Source: Verrucomicrobiota bacterium
GTDB taxonomy: Bacteria > Verrucomicrobiota > Verrucomicrobiia > Palsa-1439
Reading direction: 5' to 3'
NCBI GenBank assembly: GCA_003152315.1
Contig: PLZV01000057.1
Coordinates: 74,872-138,871, forward strand
DNA length: 64,000 nucleotides
How positions within the stretch are numbered: the first letter of the stretch is position 1; each line of letters opens with the position of its first letter. The notes beneath the pieces are model-generated. The model ran no database searches and was not told the origin of the DNA. It worked only from the letters and a program-made list of their open reading frames with translations. This document shows positions 3,071-39,017 of this stretch, piece after piece. A program made the position numbers and the translations under genes.

Positions 3071-3140
3071 GGCCCGCACTCCGACCGCTGACGCCTGAAC
3101 GAACGAGCGTAGTGTAACAATTTGGGCGGCCGGTAGCAAC

Positions 3141-3347
3141 GCTGAGTTTTCAGCGGCGCGAGGTATGAAGTATGGTAAACTGACTATCTTCGAGCTCGCG
3201 GCGAGTTACGGGTTCGGTCTGGTGAACAATCATCCGTACGTTGATGGAAACAAGCGCATGGGTTCGCCGTGGCGGTCTTGTTTCCGGAACTCAACAGCTA
3301 CCGGTTTTATGCGACCGAGGCCAACGCGACCGTGCGCACACTACGAT
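3141..3347 (+). pseudogene. Doc/Fic-type toxin remnant, 5'-truncated and frameshifted
   Basis: Codons from about 3141 read KYGKLTIFELAASYGFGLV, then NNHPYVDGNKRMG, which is the Fic/Doc active-site motif HPFxDGNKR and its preceding helix. After GNKRMG the homology jumps to another frame (FAVAVLFPELNSYRFYATEA from about 3262), as if one base had been lost after ATGGG. Doc proteins continue exactly like this after the motif. The roughly 60 N-terminal residues and the final helix are missing, and no antitoxin gene is adjacent. Doc enzymes phosphorylate EF-Tu; this copy cannot be functional. Confidence 0.75.
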
Positions 3348-3391
3348 GCCGCGGTCAATCACGTTGCTCTCTCTTCGTCTCGGCCAATATC

Positions 3392-4576
3392 TTAAAACTT
3401 AAGCCCCAAAGACACGTCGCACTGTCTTTGATACTGTTCTGTAAACTGTTGTCGGCCTTCTTTGTAGTCGATGCCCAGTTGCACATTGCGGCTAGTGCCG
3501 ATCACATATCCCAGTTGCGTGATAAACAAGCGCGTGCTTCTGGTGCCGGAGTTAACAGCTTCATAGTCACGAAACGAGGTGGTTTCGATGAGCCGCCAAT
3601 CAAACGTTTGAGGCAAAGGGAATAGTTCGAGTTGAGTAAAGGGCCCGATTCGCACAAATGTATTCGGACCCTTGATTGTTGGATTCCCGCCGCGGTCGAA
3701 GATATCTCCTCCTTCCGCATGCGCGAAGATTCGCCAACGCACATCTAAGGCGTTGCGCGCGTCGGGAAACAGAGGCTGCCGCCGCCCAAGAGCGATTGAG
3801 TTAACACGCGGCTCCCACTCTAGTTCGCCACCTGTTTGCCCAGACTTAAAGTTCGTATCCGTGGAGTAGAACCAGCCGTATCGCACGGACTGGTAGAGAT
3901 TCAGCTCCGTCGACAAGGACGTCCGGAATACAAGGGAGTCCACTGAATTATTTGTCTGCACCGCTTGCACCTTGTTGACGGAAATGCTGGGCACAAACTC
4001 TGTCTGGTAGGATTTCGTGTCGAATACGTTTGTAAACAATCCAAACAGGGAGCCATTGATGTTCCAGTAACTCTTATCTTTGACCTGATCTCTGGTAAAC
4101 GAGACCTTCGCATAGTCAGCACTGTTAAGTGACGGAACCGGAACGAATCGACTCGGGTCCCCAGGGTCATCGATGACGAAATCCTGCCATTCGGCAAGCA
4201 CATGAAAATGACCTGCGGTTTTCTTGACAGTTTCGATAAAACGATTCGTTTCCGTTTCTGGCTCCCAAATCGGCTTCAGGAAATCATAAGTATAGGTTTT
4301 CTGAGGATCCAAAGGAGGTGTTCTTCCTGCCATCAGTTCGCCACTTTGGATTATAAACGGGGCGCGCCCATGGTCGGTCAGGTCTTCCCAACTCACACCA
4401 CTTACATTCTTCCTAATCATTAGGTCGTAAACGTACCGGATGTGATCTTCGGGTTTTACAATCCGATGGCCATTTACGTCCAGCGAGGTGTAGTTGATGA
4501 GCTTAACCTCATTAGTGGCTCCCAATAGGCTCGTGAGCGAGCCAAAGAACAGCAGCGCAAGGACGCTGCGTTTCAT
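3392..4576 (-). CDS. Exported protein of unknown function, probably an outer-membrane barrel
   Basis: This 394-aa protein has a signal peptide (MKRSVLALLFFGSLTSLLGA). The C-terminal two thirds alternate polar and hydrophobic residues with many aromatics (VRYGWFYSTDTNF, LDVRWRIFAHAEGG, RIGPFTQLELFPLP, RLFITQLGYVIG, CDVSLGLKF) and end in Phe, all typical of a beta-barrel. It is the last gene of a four-gene minus-strand run; its ATG overlaps the stop of the 117-aa gene by 4 bp. Lower GC than the flanking housekeeping genes suggests a laterally acquired block. I do not recognise the family. Confidence 0.7.
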   Translation of the reverse strand: MKRSVLALLFFGSLTSLLGATNEVKLINYTSLDVNGHRIVKPEDHIRYVYDLMIRKNVSGVSWEDLTDHGRAPFIIQSGELMAGRTPPLDPQKTYTYDFLKPIWEPETETNRFIETVKKTAGHFHVLAEWQDFVIDDPGDPSRFVPVPSLNSADYAKVSFTRDQVKDKSYWNINGSLFGLFTNVFDTKSYQTEFVPSISVNKVQAVQTNNSVDSLVFRTSLSTELNLYQSVRYGWFYSTDTNFKSGQTGGELEWEPRVNSIALGRRQPLFPDARNALDVRWRIFAHAEGGDIFDRGGNPTIKGPNTFVRIGPFTQLELFPLPQTFDWRLIETTSFRDYEAVNSGTRSTRLFITQLGYVIGTSRNVQLGIDYKEGRQQFTEQYQRQCDVSLGLKF

Positions 4577-4926
4577 GTGCTCAGCCCCAGTTGTTTAAGT
4601 GTGATGATCTGGACCAGCTTCCCGAAGGTTTTTGCGTCTGTAATCTCTTGAATTGTAAGAGTGACCCCAAAAAACTTTGGATCGCCTATTTCCTGGGAGA
4701 ATTGCTCCAGATCCTGCTGTGCGGAAAACACATCCTGGATCGCAGTATCATAAGTAACATTATACCCCATGCCGCCCTCATCCTCTGGGGCTGTCAACGT
4801 ATGCCAATTTGCAGCCCCCTTGGCTGCCAGATCCGTCATGGTCGGCCCAGCCCCGGTTAGGAAGTTCAACATTGACTTTTTAGGATCATGCTTCCCCGAT
4901 TTTGTCCTATACTTTGCCTTCATCAT
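4573..4926 (-). CDS. 117-aa hypothetical protein of the HExxH-peptidase cassette
   Basis: The gene has a strong Shine-Dalgarno site (GGAGGTG) just before two consecutive ATG codons; the second (4923) has the better spacing. The N-terminus is basic (KAKYRTKSGKHDPKKS) and contains the segment LTGAGPTMTDLAAKGAAN. The rest is acidic and helical (AIQDVFSAQQDLEQFSQEIGDP). There is no signal peptide or membrane span. Its stop overlaps the start of the exported barrel-like gene, and the peptidase and membrane-protein genes lie just upstream. I found no recognisable domain; it may be an adaptor or a substrate of the neighbouring peptidase. Confidence 0.6.
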   Translation of the reverse strand: MMKAKYRTKSGKHDPKKSMLNFLTGAGPTMTDLAAKGAANWHTLTAPEDEGGMGYNVTYDTAIQDVFSAQQDLEQFSQEIGDPKFFGVTLTIQEITDAKTFGKLVQIITLKQLGLST

Positions 4927-5024
4927 TTCACCTCCATTGTATCAACACACCTTACAATGCCTTCATTGCCCATCCTCACGACATCAATTGCGTTTCATGT
5001 TTTCTCGCACCTTCGCTGCGATTT

Positions 5025-5519
5025 TCAGGTGCGGCCATTACTGGGAGCCTGCTGACCAGATGGGATTGCGCTGCCTGGTGATATGCAGGCGACGAAGAAC
5101 GTGAAGATCGGCAGTAACACCGCACCATAGACCGGTTTGTATCCGTCGATGTCCGCAAAGGGTCCCCCAAGAGCAAACACCCACACGGCAAAAGAAAGCG
5201 TTGAAACTATCAATTGTACCCGCTTCGTGACATTTTGTGCGAACCGTAAATAGACCGGTGTACCAATTAGGCCTGCAGCAAAAATGACCCAGTACAAGAA
5301 ATGCGGGGCATTCTGTGTCGCGGCGACCACCGTACTGAGGCCGAGATAAAGCGTCACAGCTTCGGCTGGGATGTATTTGAACAGCTTGTCCCGGTACCGA
5401 TCCGGCGTTTCTTGTTGTTGTGCGGGAACCCCGCCCTGTGGTGGCGATACCTGAACGAGTTCGGAGAGTGCCCCCCTGACTACAGGCCTACTTGGAGCAG
5501 TGACGATGGAACGACTCAT
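5025..5519 (-). CDS. Multi-pass membrane protein of the HExxH-peptidase cassette
   Basis: This 164-aa protein has a soluble Pro/Gln-rich N-terminus (SPPQGGVPAQQQETPDRYRD) followed by about four hydrophobic segments (AEAVTLYLGLSTVVAA, FLYWVIFAAGLIGTPVYL, VQLIVSTLSFAVWVFALG, PVYGAVLLPIFTFFVAC) and a short polar tail. AGGAGA lies about 8 bases before the ATG at 5519. It begins 12 bp after the peptidase stop, so the two are almost certainly co-transcribed. I do not recognise the family; a membrane anchor or partner of the peptidase is a guess from context. Confidence 0.65.
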   Translation of the reverse strand: MSRSIVTAPSRPVVRGALSELVQVSPPQGGVPAQQQETPDRYRDKLFKYIPAEAVTLYLGLSTVVAATQNAPHFLYWVIFAAGLIGTPVYLRFAQNVTKRVQLIVSTLSFAVWVFALGGPFADIDGYKPVYGAVLLPIFTFFVACISPGSAIPSGQQAPSNGRT

Positions 5520-5531
5520 AGGCGGTCTCCT

Positions 5532-6872
5532 TTATGGTTGTACAGAGTTGAGTAGCGCTAGCAACATACTGAATTCAATGGTTCCGGGTTCGTAGACATC
5601 GGAGGCGTGTTCACGCGCGGATTTCCGAATGTCTTGCCTAACGCGGGACATATAGTCACGCGCGGAATTCATCATCGCGATCTTTCGCGGCTCCTTTGGA
5701 GCCAACACGACTTGCGTCTGTCCCTGCTGGCCCGCAACCTGCCTTATGGCGATCACATCGTTAATATCGCCGCCCCTGAGCAATTCGGCCACTAGGGTTC
5801 GCATCGAAGACAAGACGTCGTCCAGCGTGAGTTCGAATACGGGTGGTCGACGAAGTAGCATTTGCTCGATTGCTCGCCACAGTTGGTCGAACGCGAGCGA
5901 TGTGTTGGCTATTGCGTAAAACGTTCGCGAGCCGGCGGTCGCACGAAGTTTAGCACGGAGGGCCGCGATGCGATCGCCGGCTGTAGGGTGGGTCTTTTCA
6001 AAGCGCATCCCCACTGTTTCCATCGCCATCCGAACCCGCAATCCGAACTCAGCGCCTGCGTAAAACATCTGCCGCTGCGCACTGCCTGGCTTGGGGTTCA
6101 GAAGATAGTCGATCAACCATCGACTGGCAGTCGAGTCAGCCTGAATCTCTAATTCAAGAACATCGAGCTTCTTCCCCAAAATTCGCCAAAGCCTGAACGA
6201 ATGTTCATTGTAGATATGAGCGAGTTCGTGCATTAGGAAAAAGGTTTCGGCATGTACGGCAATGATGTTTGCCCAGCCCTGCTGATCTTGGGTCACCGGA
6301 AACGCTTGCGCCGTCGCGATCTTCTGTTCCTTGTAGTTCGTGAACAACTCGGCGACCTTTGCCGCCGCTTCTGGCGCTGAGAGCGCAGGCGTTAGCTCGC
6401 CACCACGGAACTGGCCACTGTCGGTGCCAGTTAGCGCTCGGGCCGCACTGTACACCAGGCGCATCAATCCGCTGTACATTTCGATCGCGTAGCCGCGTCC
6501 AATTTCAGTGACGCAAGCCACCGGTGTAAGCTCACCGATTTCTCCGCTGGCGATCAACCCGCGCGCCACCCGGGTTTGCATTATCGGCGGAGAAAAGTCG
6601 AGTGCTCCGCCAAATAAAGCCGCCCAGCCATCGGCAGTCTGATACTTCGGGGGATGCTGATGTTGCCGAGCTGCAATGTACTCGACTGGCTTGCGAAAGC
6701 GCGTGACGGGCGAGTTTTGCGCTTGGTTGAGGCCCCCAGCTGCGCTGGCTATTTCTGGCGCCTTTATCGTGAACGACGCGAGCATACGCTGGCCTTCCGG
6801 CGCGTCAATGGAGAAATCTTTCGGCCCGATTTGCAGCCAAAAAGGCAAGTTCATGTCTGCATTTGAGCGCAT
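5532..6872 (-). CDS. Putative zinc metallopeptidase with HELAH motif, first gene of the cassette
   Basis: This 446-aa protein has a zinc-peptidase signature: FFLMHELAHIYNEHS (His215, Glu216, His219) and about 25 residues later ELEIQADSTASRWLID, which supplies the expected third ligand Glu with the following ExxAD pattern. HPTAGDRIAALRAKL further on resembles the HPs/tAxxRI motif of M48-type peptidases. There is no signal peptide or membrane span, so it is probably cytosolic; the membrane protein immediately downstream may recruit it. The long N- and C-terminal regions match nothing I know. The start at 6872 is the first ATG; 6854 is an alternative. Confidence 0.72.
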   Translation of the reverse strand: MRSNADMNLPFWLQIGPKDFSIDAPEGQRMLASFTIKAPEIASAAGGLNQAQNSPVTRFRKPVEYIAARQHQHPPKYQTADGWAALFGGALDFSPPIMQTRVARGLIASGEIGELTPVACVTEIGRGYAIEMYSGLMRLVYSAARALTGTDSGQFRGGELTPALSAPEAAAKVAELFTNYKEQKIATAQAFPVTQDQQGWANIIAVHAETFFLMHELAHIYNEHSFRLWRILGKKLDVLELEIQADSTASRWLIDYLLNPKPGSAQRQMFYAGAEFGLRVRMAMETVGMRFEKTHPTAGDRIAALRAKLRATAGSRTFYAIANTSLAFDQLWRAIEQMLLRRPPVFELTLDDVLSSMRTLVAELLRGGDINDVIAIRQVAGQQGQTQVVLAPKEPRKIAMMNSARDYMSRVRQDIRKSAREHASDVYEPGTIEFSMLLALLNSVQP

Positions 6873-7368
6873 TCAACTGGACGACACTCATCGAGAATAG
6901 CTTCAAAGCGCTCTTGGAGTTTAGCCCAACGTCCTTCTCAGTGTGCCGGGGTACGCGACTCAGATGGCCGATGCCAGCCTGCAGGTAGTAGTCCCACGTT
7001 CCGCAGAGTTGATCCAAAACGACTTTTCACAGTTTTTCCACAATTTTACCTCTATGACATCAATGTTTACGCGCCCCCGGTAGGAAAGCTTCCAAACCTT
7101 CCAAAGCTTCCGAAGTGCACTCACGGGTTTCTCGGTATCGGCATAGGATAACCGTGTGACTTATGCACAGATGCGGTGGCGAACGGGTCGGTCAAGGTCT
7201 TCGGCGAATGGGGAGAAAGCTCCAAAAAACATGTGTTTCTGCGAAACGAACCCGAATTGTCCCAACGTTTTTTTTGATGTAACAATCGTCCTACGAGCGG
7301 ATTGCGTTGATGACACTGAAAAAACAATTCGGGTTCGTTTGGCGAGAATTGACCTGCATCCAAGAGGC
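6873..7368. other. Gene-free region upstream of the peptidase cassette
   Basis: About 500 bp without a convincing gene. It contains one 97-bp palindromic element (annotated separately), the near-repetitive stretch CTTCCAAACCTTCCAAAGCTTCC near 7089 and two isolated sequences resembling DnaA boxes (a TTTTCCACA-like site near 7034 and TTATGCACA at 7161). The promoter of the minus-strand cassette should lie in its left part. ORFs here have no homology that I recognise. Confidence 0.6.
7244..7340. repeat. 97-bp palindromic intergenic element, copy 1
   Basis: Perfect 17-bp terminal inverted repeats (AAACGAACCCGAATTGT at 7244-7260 and its reverse complement at 7324-7340) bound a 63-bp AT-richer middle. 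The left flank CATGTGTTTCTGCG is shared with copy 4. Size and termini match four other copies in the window. Confidence 0.85.
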
Positions 7369-8493: not shown

Positions 8494-10167
8494 ATGGACA
8501 AAACCCTCCAGACCATTTGCAACATGCTGCAAAGCCCGGACGGAATGCGGCGTTGCGCGGCGGCAATGGTTATTGCCGAACTGCGACCGAAGCAGGACGT
8601 GGTCATTAAGGCGCTGGGCGCGAGCTTGAAGGACGCGAACCAACTGCTGACGCGCTACGTGCTGGAAGCGTTTGAGGCGCTCGATTCGCGCGCGGTAGTC
8701 CCGTATGTGTTGCCGTTGCTGGAGGCGCCGGAGACAGAAACCAAGCTGCGGGCCGCCGCCATCATCGCGCGCACGGGCGGCGAGAACGTCGCCAGTCTCC
8801 GCGATCAATTTGCCAAGGCCAACCCGCAGCAGAAGCGGGTTCTCGTCGATATTCTGGCCCGCATTCACAACCGCGACGCGATGCAACTCATTCTCGATGC
8901 GTTGTTCGATCCCGATTTCGAGCTGGTCAAGGAGGCCTGCCAGGCTGTTCGCCGGCATATTGTTGATGCGACGCCGAAGAACCAGGTGGCCCTGCACAAG
9001 CAAGTCGCCACGTTCATGACCTCAGCGCGCGCGAAGAAGAACGACCGAGTGCTGACTTCCTGTCTCTTGCTGATCGGCTATATCGGCGCACCGGATGCCC
9101 GGAAGATCTTGTTGAAATATACCACGTCGAGGAATCTCGGTTACATCCGCCGCAATGCGCTCATCGGTCTCAAGGGCTTGCAGTACACGGGTGCCGCCGT
9201 CAACCAGATCAGCAGCCAGATGCTCAAGTATCTTGCGGAACCGGATTACCAGAACATTGTCCAGAACGCGTTGGACATCATCGAGAAGCTGCCGCTCGGC
9301 AAGACATACGACGCCCAGTGGCGCAAGTTGCTCAAGAGCAAACACCCGAGTGTTCGCGCGTTTGCCACGCGCAAGCTCGCGTCGAATGACAATGCCGCCA
9401 GCAATCGGCTGATGATGACGCTGCTCGCCCACCCGGACACACAAGTCAGCGAAATCGCGGCGGGCGCGCTGGCCCGGCACAAGAGCGCGACCAAACTATT
9501 GCTCGCCGCACTGGCTCGTGAACGCAAATCAGAACCCGCCTGGCGGCTGGCCAAGATCCTCAAGCCGCATAGCCCGGCGGTGGACCGGAAGACGCTGAAG
9601 AAATTCGTCGCTCTGGCTGAGCGCGCCATCCAGGACGGCGATCAACGTTATGAGACGTTGCTCTATTTCCTTCGCAACATCGACCCGAAACTGGCTGACA
9701 ACGTCTATCGCGAGGTCGGCTTGAAATACAAGAAGGCCCGGAAGTGGGCCAAGGCCGTGGATTGCCTGAAGCAGGTGTTGCGTTCCGAGGCGTCCGACGC
9801 GGAATTGCGCTTCGAACTCAGCGTCTGCAACGTTAAACAGTCCGCGAAGGACCTGACGCCGCATCTGCGGGCGGAAGACCAGGCGCTGCGGGGATTTCAG
9901 GCGCTGCTGCCGGACAAGGGCTTCAAGCTGTTTGACCGATTGAAGAAGGAGAAGGCGCTGGAAGCGGCCGACCTCTCTTACATCGGGTTCCACTTCAGCG
10001 AAGGCACGGGTGAAGAGCAGAAGTTTGGCCGCAAGATTCTCGAATACGTCGCGAAGCGGTGGTCGAAAACCAAAGAGGGCAAGGCGGCCAAGAACAAGCT
10101 CAAGCTTCCGCCGCGCTCACAGTCCATCACGCCCACGCCGGTTCCGCACGCAAGCGTCGAAGACTGA
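8494..10167 (+). CDS. HEAT-repeat protein of unknown role
   Basis: This 557-aa soluble protein is built almost entirely of alpha-helical pairs of HEAT type (for example QSPDGMRRCAAAMVIAELRP, PETETKLRAAAIIARTGG, KHPSVRAFATRKLASNDN, HPDTQVSEIAAGALARHK). The last third (DNVYREVGLKYKKARKWAKAVDCL) looks more TPR-like, and the tail is basic and Pro-rich. There is no signal peptide. Such scaffolds mediate protein-protein contacts; the partner is unknown. It converges on ksgA. Confidence 0.82.
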   Translation: MDKTLQTICNMLQSPDGMRRCAAAMVIAELRPKQDVVIKALGASLKDANQLLTRYVLEAFEALDSRAVVPYVLPLLEAPETETKLRAAAIIARTGGENVASLRDQFAKANPQQKRVLVDILARIHNRDAMQLILDALFDPDFELVKEACQAVRRHIVDATPKNQVALHKQVATFMTSARAKKNDRVLTSCLLLIGYIGAPDARKILLKYTTSRNLGYIRRNALIGLKGLQYTGAAVNQISSQMLKYLAEPDYQNIVQNALDIIEKLPLGKTYDAQWRKLLKSKHPSVRAFATRKLASNDNAASNRLMMTLLAHPDTQVSEIAAGALARHKSATKLLLAALARERKSEPAWRLAKILKPHSPAVDRKTLKKFVALAERAIQDGDQRYETLLYFLRNIDPKLADNVYREVGLKYKKARKWAKAVDCLKQVLRSEASDAELRFELSVCNVKQSAKDLTPHLRAEDQALRGFQALLPDKGFKLFDRLKKEKALEAADLSYIGFHFSEGTGEEQKFGRKILEYVAKRWSKTKEGKAAKNKLKLPPRSQSITPTPVPHASVED

Positions 10168-38609: not shown

Positions 38610-39017
38610 ATCGTTCTCCGGCTGACACCTTCTGCCACCCGCTCCACGGTCGGTCAATTAGATAATGAATGGACCCGGCCTACATCATTCCATCCAGTTT
38701 GGGGTGGACATCGTATTCCGATAGTGATATAGTTCGCGGTATGGACTTTGAGAGGAAAGGGAAGGATGAGATACCCGCGCCAGTAAGGGGGATCCGCCGT
38801 CGCACTTCGCGCTATGGCGGACGAGGAGGACCTCGAAACATGTGTTTCTGCGAAACGAACCCGAATTGTCCCCGCAGAGTTTCCAGCGTAAGCGGCACAT
38901 CGACAGTCAATTGTGATTTTGGAACACATTTTTTAATTCGGGTTCGTTTGGACGGATTTTCGCAGTTTGACGGGCGTCGCTCCACTACGGTAAGGGACCG
39001 ACAGCAGCATTGACTCT
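38610..39017. other. Gene-free region with palindromic element copy 4
   Basis: About 400 bp upstream of the ABC ATPase gene. It holds the 97-bp palindrome and the CTTCGCGCTATGGCGGACGA sequence near 38807, which also precedes copy 5 near 62672. Promoters of the methyltransferase (minus) and ABC (plus) units should lie here. Confidence 0.65.
38853..38949. repeat. 97-bp palindromic intergenic element, copy 4
   Basis: Perfect 15-bp arms AAACGAACCCGAATT (38853-38867) and reverse complement (38935-38949). It is exactly the same length as copy 1 and has the same left flank (CATGTGTTTCTGCG), but its middle differs. Confidence 0.85.

Follow-up and report, generated by a model that had tools for sequence, protein, structure and literature searches.

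Protease-activated killing is a recurrent immune principle, from bacteria to animals. The phage-exclusion peptidase Lit cleaves EF-Tu and is activated by the Gol peptide of phage T4. In the nuclease-protease pairs of AVAST and Hachiman, a protease has been shown to cleave a pro-nuclease (PMC12799240), and PMC13236601 describes bacterial gasdermins as being opened by proteolysis. For VMAP and related systems, the accessible text of Kaur et al. (2020; PMC7159879) proposes that effectors are released by peptidase proteolysis; the trypsin partners named there are Trypco1 and Trypco2, and not the membrane protein family described below. Here we describe a locus in a 64,000-nucleotide stretch of a Verrucomicrobiota genome (assembly GCA_003152315.1, contig PLZV01000057.1, positions 74,872 to 138,871; hereafter the window), in which a first-pass annotation had proposed an unrecognised cassette of four genes, here A to D, for a cytosolic HExxH peptidase, a membrane protein, a 117-amino-acid protein and an exported barrel. 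We found that A and B form a pair that recurs in Phenylobacterium, and that the protease class encoded beside B changes in other lineages. Tentatively, and at a little under an even chance, we read A-B as a mobile two-gene conflict module in which B is a protease-gated membrane effector.

Predicted products of genes A and B

The two genes of the pair, and three motifs within A, are located in the window as follows.

5532..6872, minus strand: gene A, predicted cytosolic Lit/U49-like zincin metallopeptidase of 446 amino acids (Pfam, NCBIfam and PADLOC profiles; Phenylobacterium homologue)
6216..6230, minus strand: HELAH zinc-binding/catalytic motif, A residues 215-219, invariant in three homologues
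6135..6149, minus strand: ExxAD, A residues 242-246, kept in Phenylobacterium; likely third zinc ligand, by comparison with M48-type zincins
5967..5993, minus strand: THPTAGDRI, A residues 294-302, of which THPxAG is invariant in three homologues
5025..5519, minus strand: gene B, predicted membrane protein of 164 amino acids with four transmembrane helices (alignment and AlphaFold)

Profile searches, which the first-pass annotation had suggested for all four proteins, placed A nearest to Lit/U49 and returned no family match for B or C. The Pfam Peptidase_U49 match of A (3.8e-5, residues 198-304) encloses HELAH and scores 23.9, exactly the cut-off of 23.9; the Phenylobacterium homologue scores 16.6 against the same cut-off. 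The NCBIfam Lit equivalog was matched at 7.1e-10 with 38.6 bits, below its cut-off of 274, so that on NCBI's threshold A falls outside Lit proper. PADLOC profiles gave 2.6e-9 for peptidase_U41 and 1.4e-8 for Lit; in the phylum, the peptidase_U41 profile picked up 11 further HExxH proteins, mostly unrelated and small, none of them accompanied by B. The M48-like motif first noted in A is confirmed, but the profiles lie nearer to Lit/U49 than to M48. All three M48 motifs (HExxH, ExxAD and HPxxxxRI, the last noted earlier as HPtAxxRI) are present and are kept in the Phenylobacterium homologue, which is 53% identical, whereas Pfam M48 matches the C-terminal part alone, with a score of 15.6 against a cut-off of 20.3; this weak match, at residues 276-307, overlaps THPTAGDRI. 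A plain M48 housekeeping protease was among the readings that we rejected. HELAH and THPxAG are also retained in a remote relative (25-26% identical) on an Ensifer megaplasmid, and the A protein has no signal peptide. Judged by profiles and motifs, A belongs among the zincins around Lit/U49 and M48 as a divergent cytosolic member that comes closest to Lit/U49, and it would act like a protease of that type. An AlphaFold model of A built from two sequences had a predicted local distance difference test score (pLDDT) of 36.6 and was not used. On the Ensifer adhaerens megaplasmid (L002:5618-11807), the Lit-like zincin gene lies near genes that read as HNH-type and caspase-like, in a region without gene annotation in the genome collection.

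B and its family have no Pfam or NCBIfam model. We scanned 84,980 species genomes, blind to context, with a DNA pattern derived from W-x-x-A-x-G-x-P-F-x5-Y-x-P. The scan returned 35 stretches, most of them encoding true homologues, from cyanobacteria, Bacteroidales, spirochaetes, Clostridia, Desulfospira, Phenylobacterium and a thaumarchaeon, and the family spans seven or more phyla. Invariant features of the family, for which 31 sequences were aligned, include Met1, Arg3, Lys48, Pro51, Trp113, Ala116, Gly118, Pro120, Phe121, Tyr127 and Pro129, and MxRxI...DxYxxRLxKYIPxE...WVFALGGPF would, if B is the effector, serve as a marker for finding further B pairs. An AlphaFold model from 30 sequences predicts a disordered tail (residues 1-40), a short helix (42-49) and transmembrane helices at 52-67, 74-95, 100-117 and 129-145, in keeping with the multi-pass membrane protein first proposed; pLDDT is about 87-95 over the block of residues 51-140. 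Lysine plus arginine averages 4.5 in the tail and 3.4 in loop 2, while loops 1 and 3 average about 0.3, a positive-inside pattern that would place both ends, including the tail, in the cytosol. B is thus a predicted inner-membrane protein of four helices, whose N-terminal tail is disordered and would lie on the cytosolic side. Tail length varies with the partner, at 19 residues beside trypsins, 26-33 beside subtilases and 30-39 beside zincins, and since it also follows the tree it provides no independent evidence. Matches of the model to potassium-channel folds (TM score 0.2) were dismissed as noise.

The Desulfospira protein (L061:2251-2883) has a long N-terminal tail, which probably holds a domain matching the C-terminus of the APS reductase beta subunit (Pfam 1.6e-18). 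A member of the B family (L032:3472-3855; 1.2e-45) is also encoded, with no protease neighbour, in a thaumarchaeal metagenome-assembled genome; it may represent either a real archaeal copy or a mis-binned contig.

Protease genes beside B homologues

In Phenylobacterium, homologues of A and B (53% and 46% identical, respectively) occur in the same order with a 4-bp overlap. Surroundings could be read at 37 B loci, and at 24 of these a protease gene lies directly beside B on the same strand. An EAD1-trypsin is encoded upstream of B at 17 cyanobacterial loci, including Fischerella, with a gap of mostly 8-71 bp and in one case 340 bp; this partner was verified with Pfam in Fischerella and five other loci. 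Several of the 17 belong to VMAP/MoxR/vWA conflict systems. The Fischerella locus continues downstream with a complete set of VMAP, MoxR and vWA genes, and VMAP-C was verified at a second cyanobacterial B locus. In four Bacteroidales loci B is preceded, at a distance of 11-190 bp, by an S8 subtilase gene (one verified with Pfam, the rest assigned by motif). The Bradyrhizobium B gene came from a later search that used a Bacteroidales B as query; it lies 13 bp ahead of a gene for a CHAT-domain protein, which is followed by QueC-like and ASCH genes. Two loci outside the 24 have proteases close by. The Desulfospira locus has a subtilase about 750 bp upstream, and a remote B of the window's class (L069:2119-16167) belongs to a large multi-protease conflict cluster that encodes a GDSL lipase, an S8 subtilase, a caspase, a class 3 lipase, B and two trypsin-NucA proteins. 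The Bradyrhizobium locus and the remote B were later matches and played no part in forming the idea of a protease partner. One further Bacteroidales locus has a peptidoglycan-binding protein fragment beside B. The partner motifs TNYH, GSSG and GTS match active proteases.

As a rough background, protease-like motifs occur in 19 of the 328 open reading frames (ORFs) of at least 200 amino acids at the B loci, with the partners themselves counted. Because the cyanobacterial loci are related, the 24 loci do not represent 24 independent events, and the recurrence of four unrelated protease clans beside B is a stronger argument than the count. In a maximum-likelihood tree of B, partner type was clustered, with 7 changes where shuffled data gave 14.4. 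The B proteins of the two zincin pairs, which come from different phyla, formed one clade (96/95), as joint transfer of A and B would predict. The pairing of B with proteases is strongly supported.

On the Bradyrhizobium plasmid pUSDA123-1 (L135:5974-12196), genes for B-like, CHAT, glycine-rich, QueC-like and ASCH proteins stand in a row, with the look of a defence locus that is related to Qat and has not been described before.

In the mechanism that we propose, a trigger, probably phage-derived, would activate A, and active A would cut the N-terminal tail of B or free B from a restraint. Released B would then perturb the membrane, so that the cell would be killed or arrested, and the pair would serve in phage defence. 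In other lineages the same B would be coupled to trypsin-EAD1, subtilase or CHAT proteins, each with its own sensor; B would act as a membrane effector, or as a partner, under the control of the particular cytosolic protease coupled to it. With a disordered tail predicted to lie in the cytosol and a protease gene immediately ahead of its own, B is plausible as a protease-gated membrane effector by parallel with nuclease-protease pairs and gasdermins. A broader version, in which B is an unrecognised class of protease-gated effectors coupled to four or more unrelated clans (trypsin, subtilisin, metallo and CHAT/caspase) and a helical-membrane counterpart of gasdermins, appears possible, with the balance leaning against it.

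Several observations weigh against B as a protease-gated effector. Conservation of neighbours alone cannot tell whether B is a substrate, an anchor or a sensor. A zincin is known as the neighbour of B at two loci, those of the window and Phenylobacterium, while an FGE-domain gene lies beside B at three spirochaete loci (one verified with Pfam) and an Lcl-domain gene beside one remote copy. At least six B loci (two from Clostridia, three cyanobacterial and one archaeal) have no protease neighbour or evident partner. The MxRxI start of B is conserved regardless of the protease partner. A Foldseek search of the B model against PDB returned nothing below E 0.5, leaving a pore fold unsupported, and no sensor or nucleoside triphosphatase (NTPase) is present within the island that carries the pair in the window (see below).

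Some of the same features would suit a different arrangement, in which B is a membrane sensor or anchor that responds to disturbance of the membrane and either tethers the protease or lets it go, and the protease then cuts a vital cytosolic target. The disordered cytosolic tail with its invariant Arg3 could bind a protease, EAD1-trypsins already carry an adaptor domain, and A is nearest to Lit/U49, whose known action is to cut a host protein. We regard this as the main rival, and the attack of Lit on EF-Tu lends it respectability. However, a single small protein with four transmembrane helices would have to regulate four unrelated protease clans, and A scores far under the Lit family cut-off (38.6 against 274); we judge this arrangement to be rather unlikely.

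The copies of B that lack proteases, one of them in an archaeon, and the spirochaete surroundings (FGE, phosphoesterase), which are not defence-like, would instead fit an ordinary partner in membrane-protein processing or quality control, with B as a housekeeping substrate or cofactor outside conflict. Such a role is difficult to reconcile with the patchy occurrence of B (3 of 376 genomes of the window's phylum), with the insertion of the island and its foreign base composition at third codon positions, and with the presence of B inside VMAP ternary systems and a trypsin-NucA/caspase cluster, and we consider it improbable.

The island and genes C and D

The pair lies in an insertion that holds two further genes and a gene remnant.

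3130..7074, no strand: island, an insertion of about 3.9 kb (alignment to the congener G010)
4573..4926, minus strand: gene C, predicted soluble protein of 117 amino acids, first in the C-D pair, with its own ribosome-binding site
3392..4576, minus strand: gene D, predicted exported protein of 394 amino acids with a signal-peptide-like N-terminus, probable outer-membrane barrel
3165..3395 (about), plus strand: Fic/Doc-family gene remnant with a broken frame (Pfam Fic 3.3e-8 over HPYVDGNKR)

Genes A to D are ORFs on one strand throughout, with a 12-bp gap between A and B, a 98-bp gap between B and C and a 4-bp overlap of C and D, exactly as first annotated. Clear, strong ribosome-binding sites precede B (AAAGGAG) and C (GGAGGTG). 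The GC content at third codon positions (GC3) is 0.624 in A, 0.558 in B, 0.551 in C and 0.572 in D, compared with 0.71-0.79 in flanking genes, which bears out the lower GC noted earlier; the decayed toxin gene reported at the border corresponds to the Fic/Doc remnant, which sits between D and the left neighbouring gene.

The island is flanked by a gene for a 127-amino-acid protein on the left and by bioB. In G010, a congener of the same genus, these two genes are about 500 bp apart, and its alignment to the window ends at window position 3129 (locus position 9086) and restarts at 7075 (locus position 8976), so that the window holds about 3.9 kb more and the congener differs over about 110 bp. 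The cassette is likewise absent from three more relatives, in which the 127-amino-acid gene adjoins bioB. In searches of the genus and family, neither A nor B nor D had a close homologue, and in searches of the phylum with A alone or B alone the window was the sole match. Adjacent neighbours in relatives without the cassette, together with this lack of close homologues nearby, support horizontal acquisition of the whole stretch of about 3.9 kb. A search of both edges of the island for repeats, direct or terminal, gave none, nor did we see an integrase. Viral contigs scanned with A, B or two-row alignments gave no match, and we rejected a phage or plasmid origin, as there was no homologue of A or B in phages and no close homologue on plasmids. 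Just to the right of the island lies an inverted repeat (7241-7343) with 20-nt arms separated by 63 nt; its 14-mer CGAACCCGAATTGT recurs at 38856 and has 3 copies in the window, where 0.03 would be expected, and may belong to a dispersed repeat element.

The shared strand, tight spacing, equally low GC3 and single insertion event would be consistent with one integrated system, in which D would report from the cell envelope via C to A-B. However, Phenylobacterium has A-B without C-D, and the 98-bp gap and separate ribosome-binding site ahead of C divide the two pairs. Among 141 genomes of the class there is one homologue of D (L120:8821-10262), 29% identical over residues 116-394, and it is preceded by a 90-amino-acid ORF that overlaps it by 4 bp and has weak similarity to C (p about 0.02-0.035 by shuffling); neither A nor B occurs at this locus. 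A C-D-like pair without A-B points to C-D as a second, independent pair on the same island, best treated as separate cargo, and a single integrated system is highly improbable. We thus rejected the four genes as one cassette, since each pair was found without the other: the co-occurrence check suggested by the first-pass annotation succeeded for A-B in Phenylobacterium and failed for all four genes together. Its signalling, processing or defence module accordingly stands for the A-B half, a mobile pair whose B occurs in published conflict systems elsewhere, and falls for the cassette as a whole.

C was not found elsewhere in the 49 genomes searched. The signal-peptide-like N-terminus of D and its C-terminal Phe are the two sequence features that suggest an outer-membrane barrel. 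The 90-amino-acid ORF of L120 also shows a weak match to acyl carrier protein (E 0.07).

Comparison with described systems

The B membrane family and the zincin-B pair were not found in the literature searched; supplements and subscription papers were beyond its reach, so that an earlier mention in a supplementary table is possible. To our knowledge, a single prophage gene is otherwise the main source of what is known about Lit-like peptidases, and A-B offers them a partner. If B is an effector, it would also give work on the effectors of VMAP conflict systems a small and experimentally tractable entry point.

Like Lit (Peptidase_U49), A is a predicted cytosolic HExxH peptidase, and the profile match spans the catalytic region. 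It differs in falling below the Lit equivalog cut-off, in being about 140 amino acids longer than the 309-position Lit model, in having ExxAD and an M48-type THPxxxxRI, and in its four-helix membrane partner. The VMAP/MoxR/vWA ternary systems of Kaur et al. (2020; PMC7159879) are matched by B homologues of Fischerella and other cyanobacteria, which directly follow an EAD1-trypsin gene and precede the VMAP genes. In contrast, MoxR, vWA, VMAP and EAD1 are absent beside A-B in the window; no MoxR, vWA or VMAP gene was recognised among the ORFs neighbouring the cassette, to which this search was confined. Trypco1 and Trypco2, both of which have models in Pfam, were not among the 22 families matched by the 31 B members. 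The NucA-trypsin multi-peptidase systems (System 3 of PMC7159879) resemble the cluster around the remote B of the window's class, whereas the island in the window has no nuclease.

Bacterial gasdermin-protease operons likewise place a protease gene next to a membrane-acting protein. B differs as a predicted constitutive four-helix membrane protein whose cleavage is an inference; it matched no gasdermin profile in Pfam, and its all-helical model has no PDB fold match. The trypsin-activated nuclease-protease pairs (PMC12799240) also combine a protease gene with a separate pro-effector and have been recruited by unrelated systems. Here, however, the partner is a protein with four predicted transmembrane helices instead of a metallo-beta-lactamase (MBL)-type nuclease, A is a zincin, and the protease class varies. 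In B systems the membrane protein is constant and the protease class changes, the reverse of nuclease-protease pairs, which keep one protease while the host system varies.

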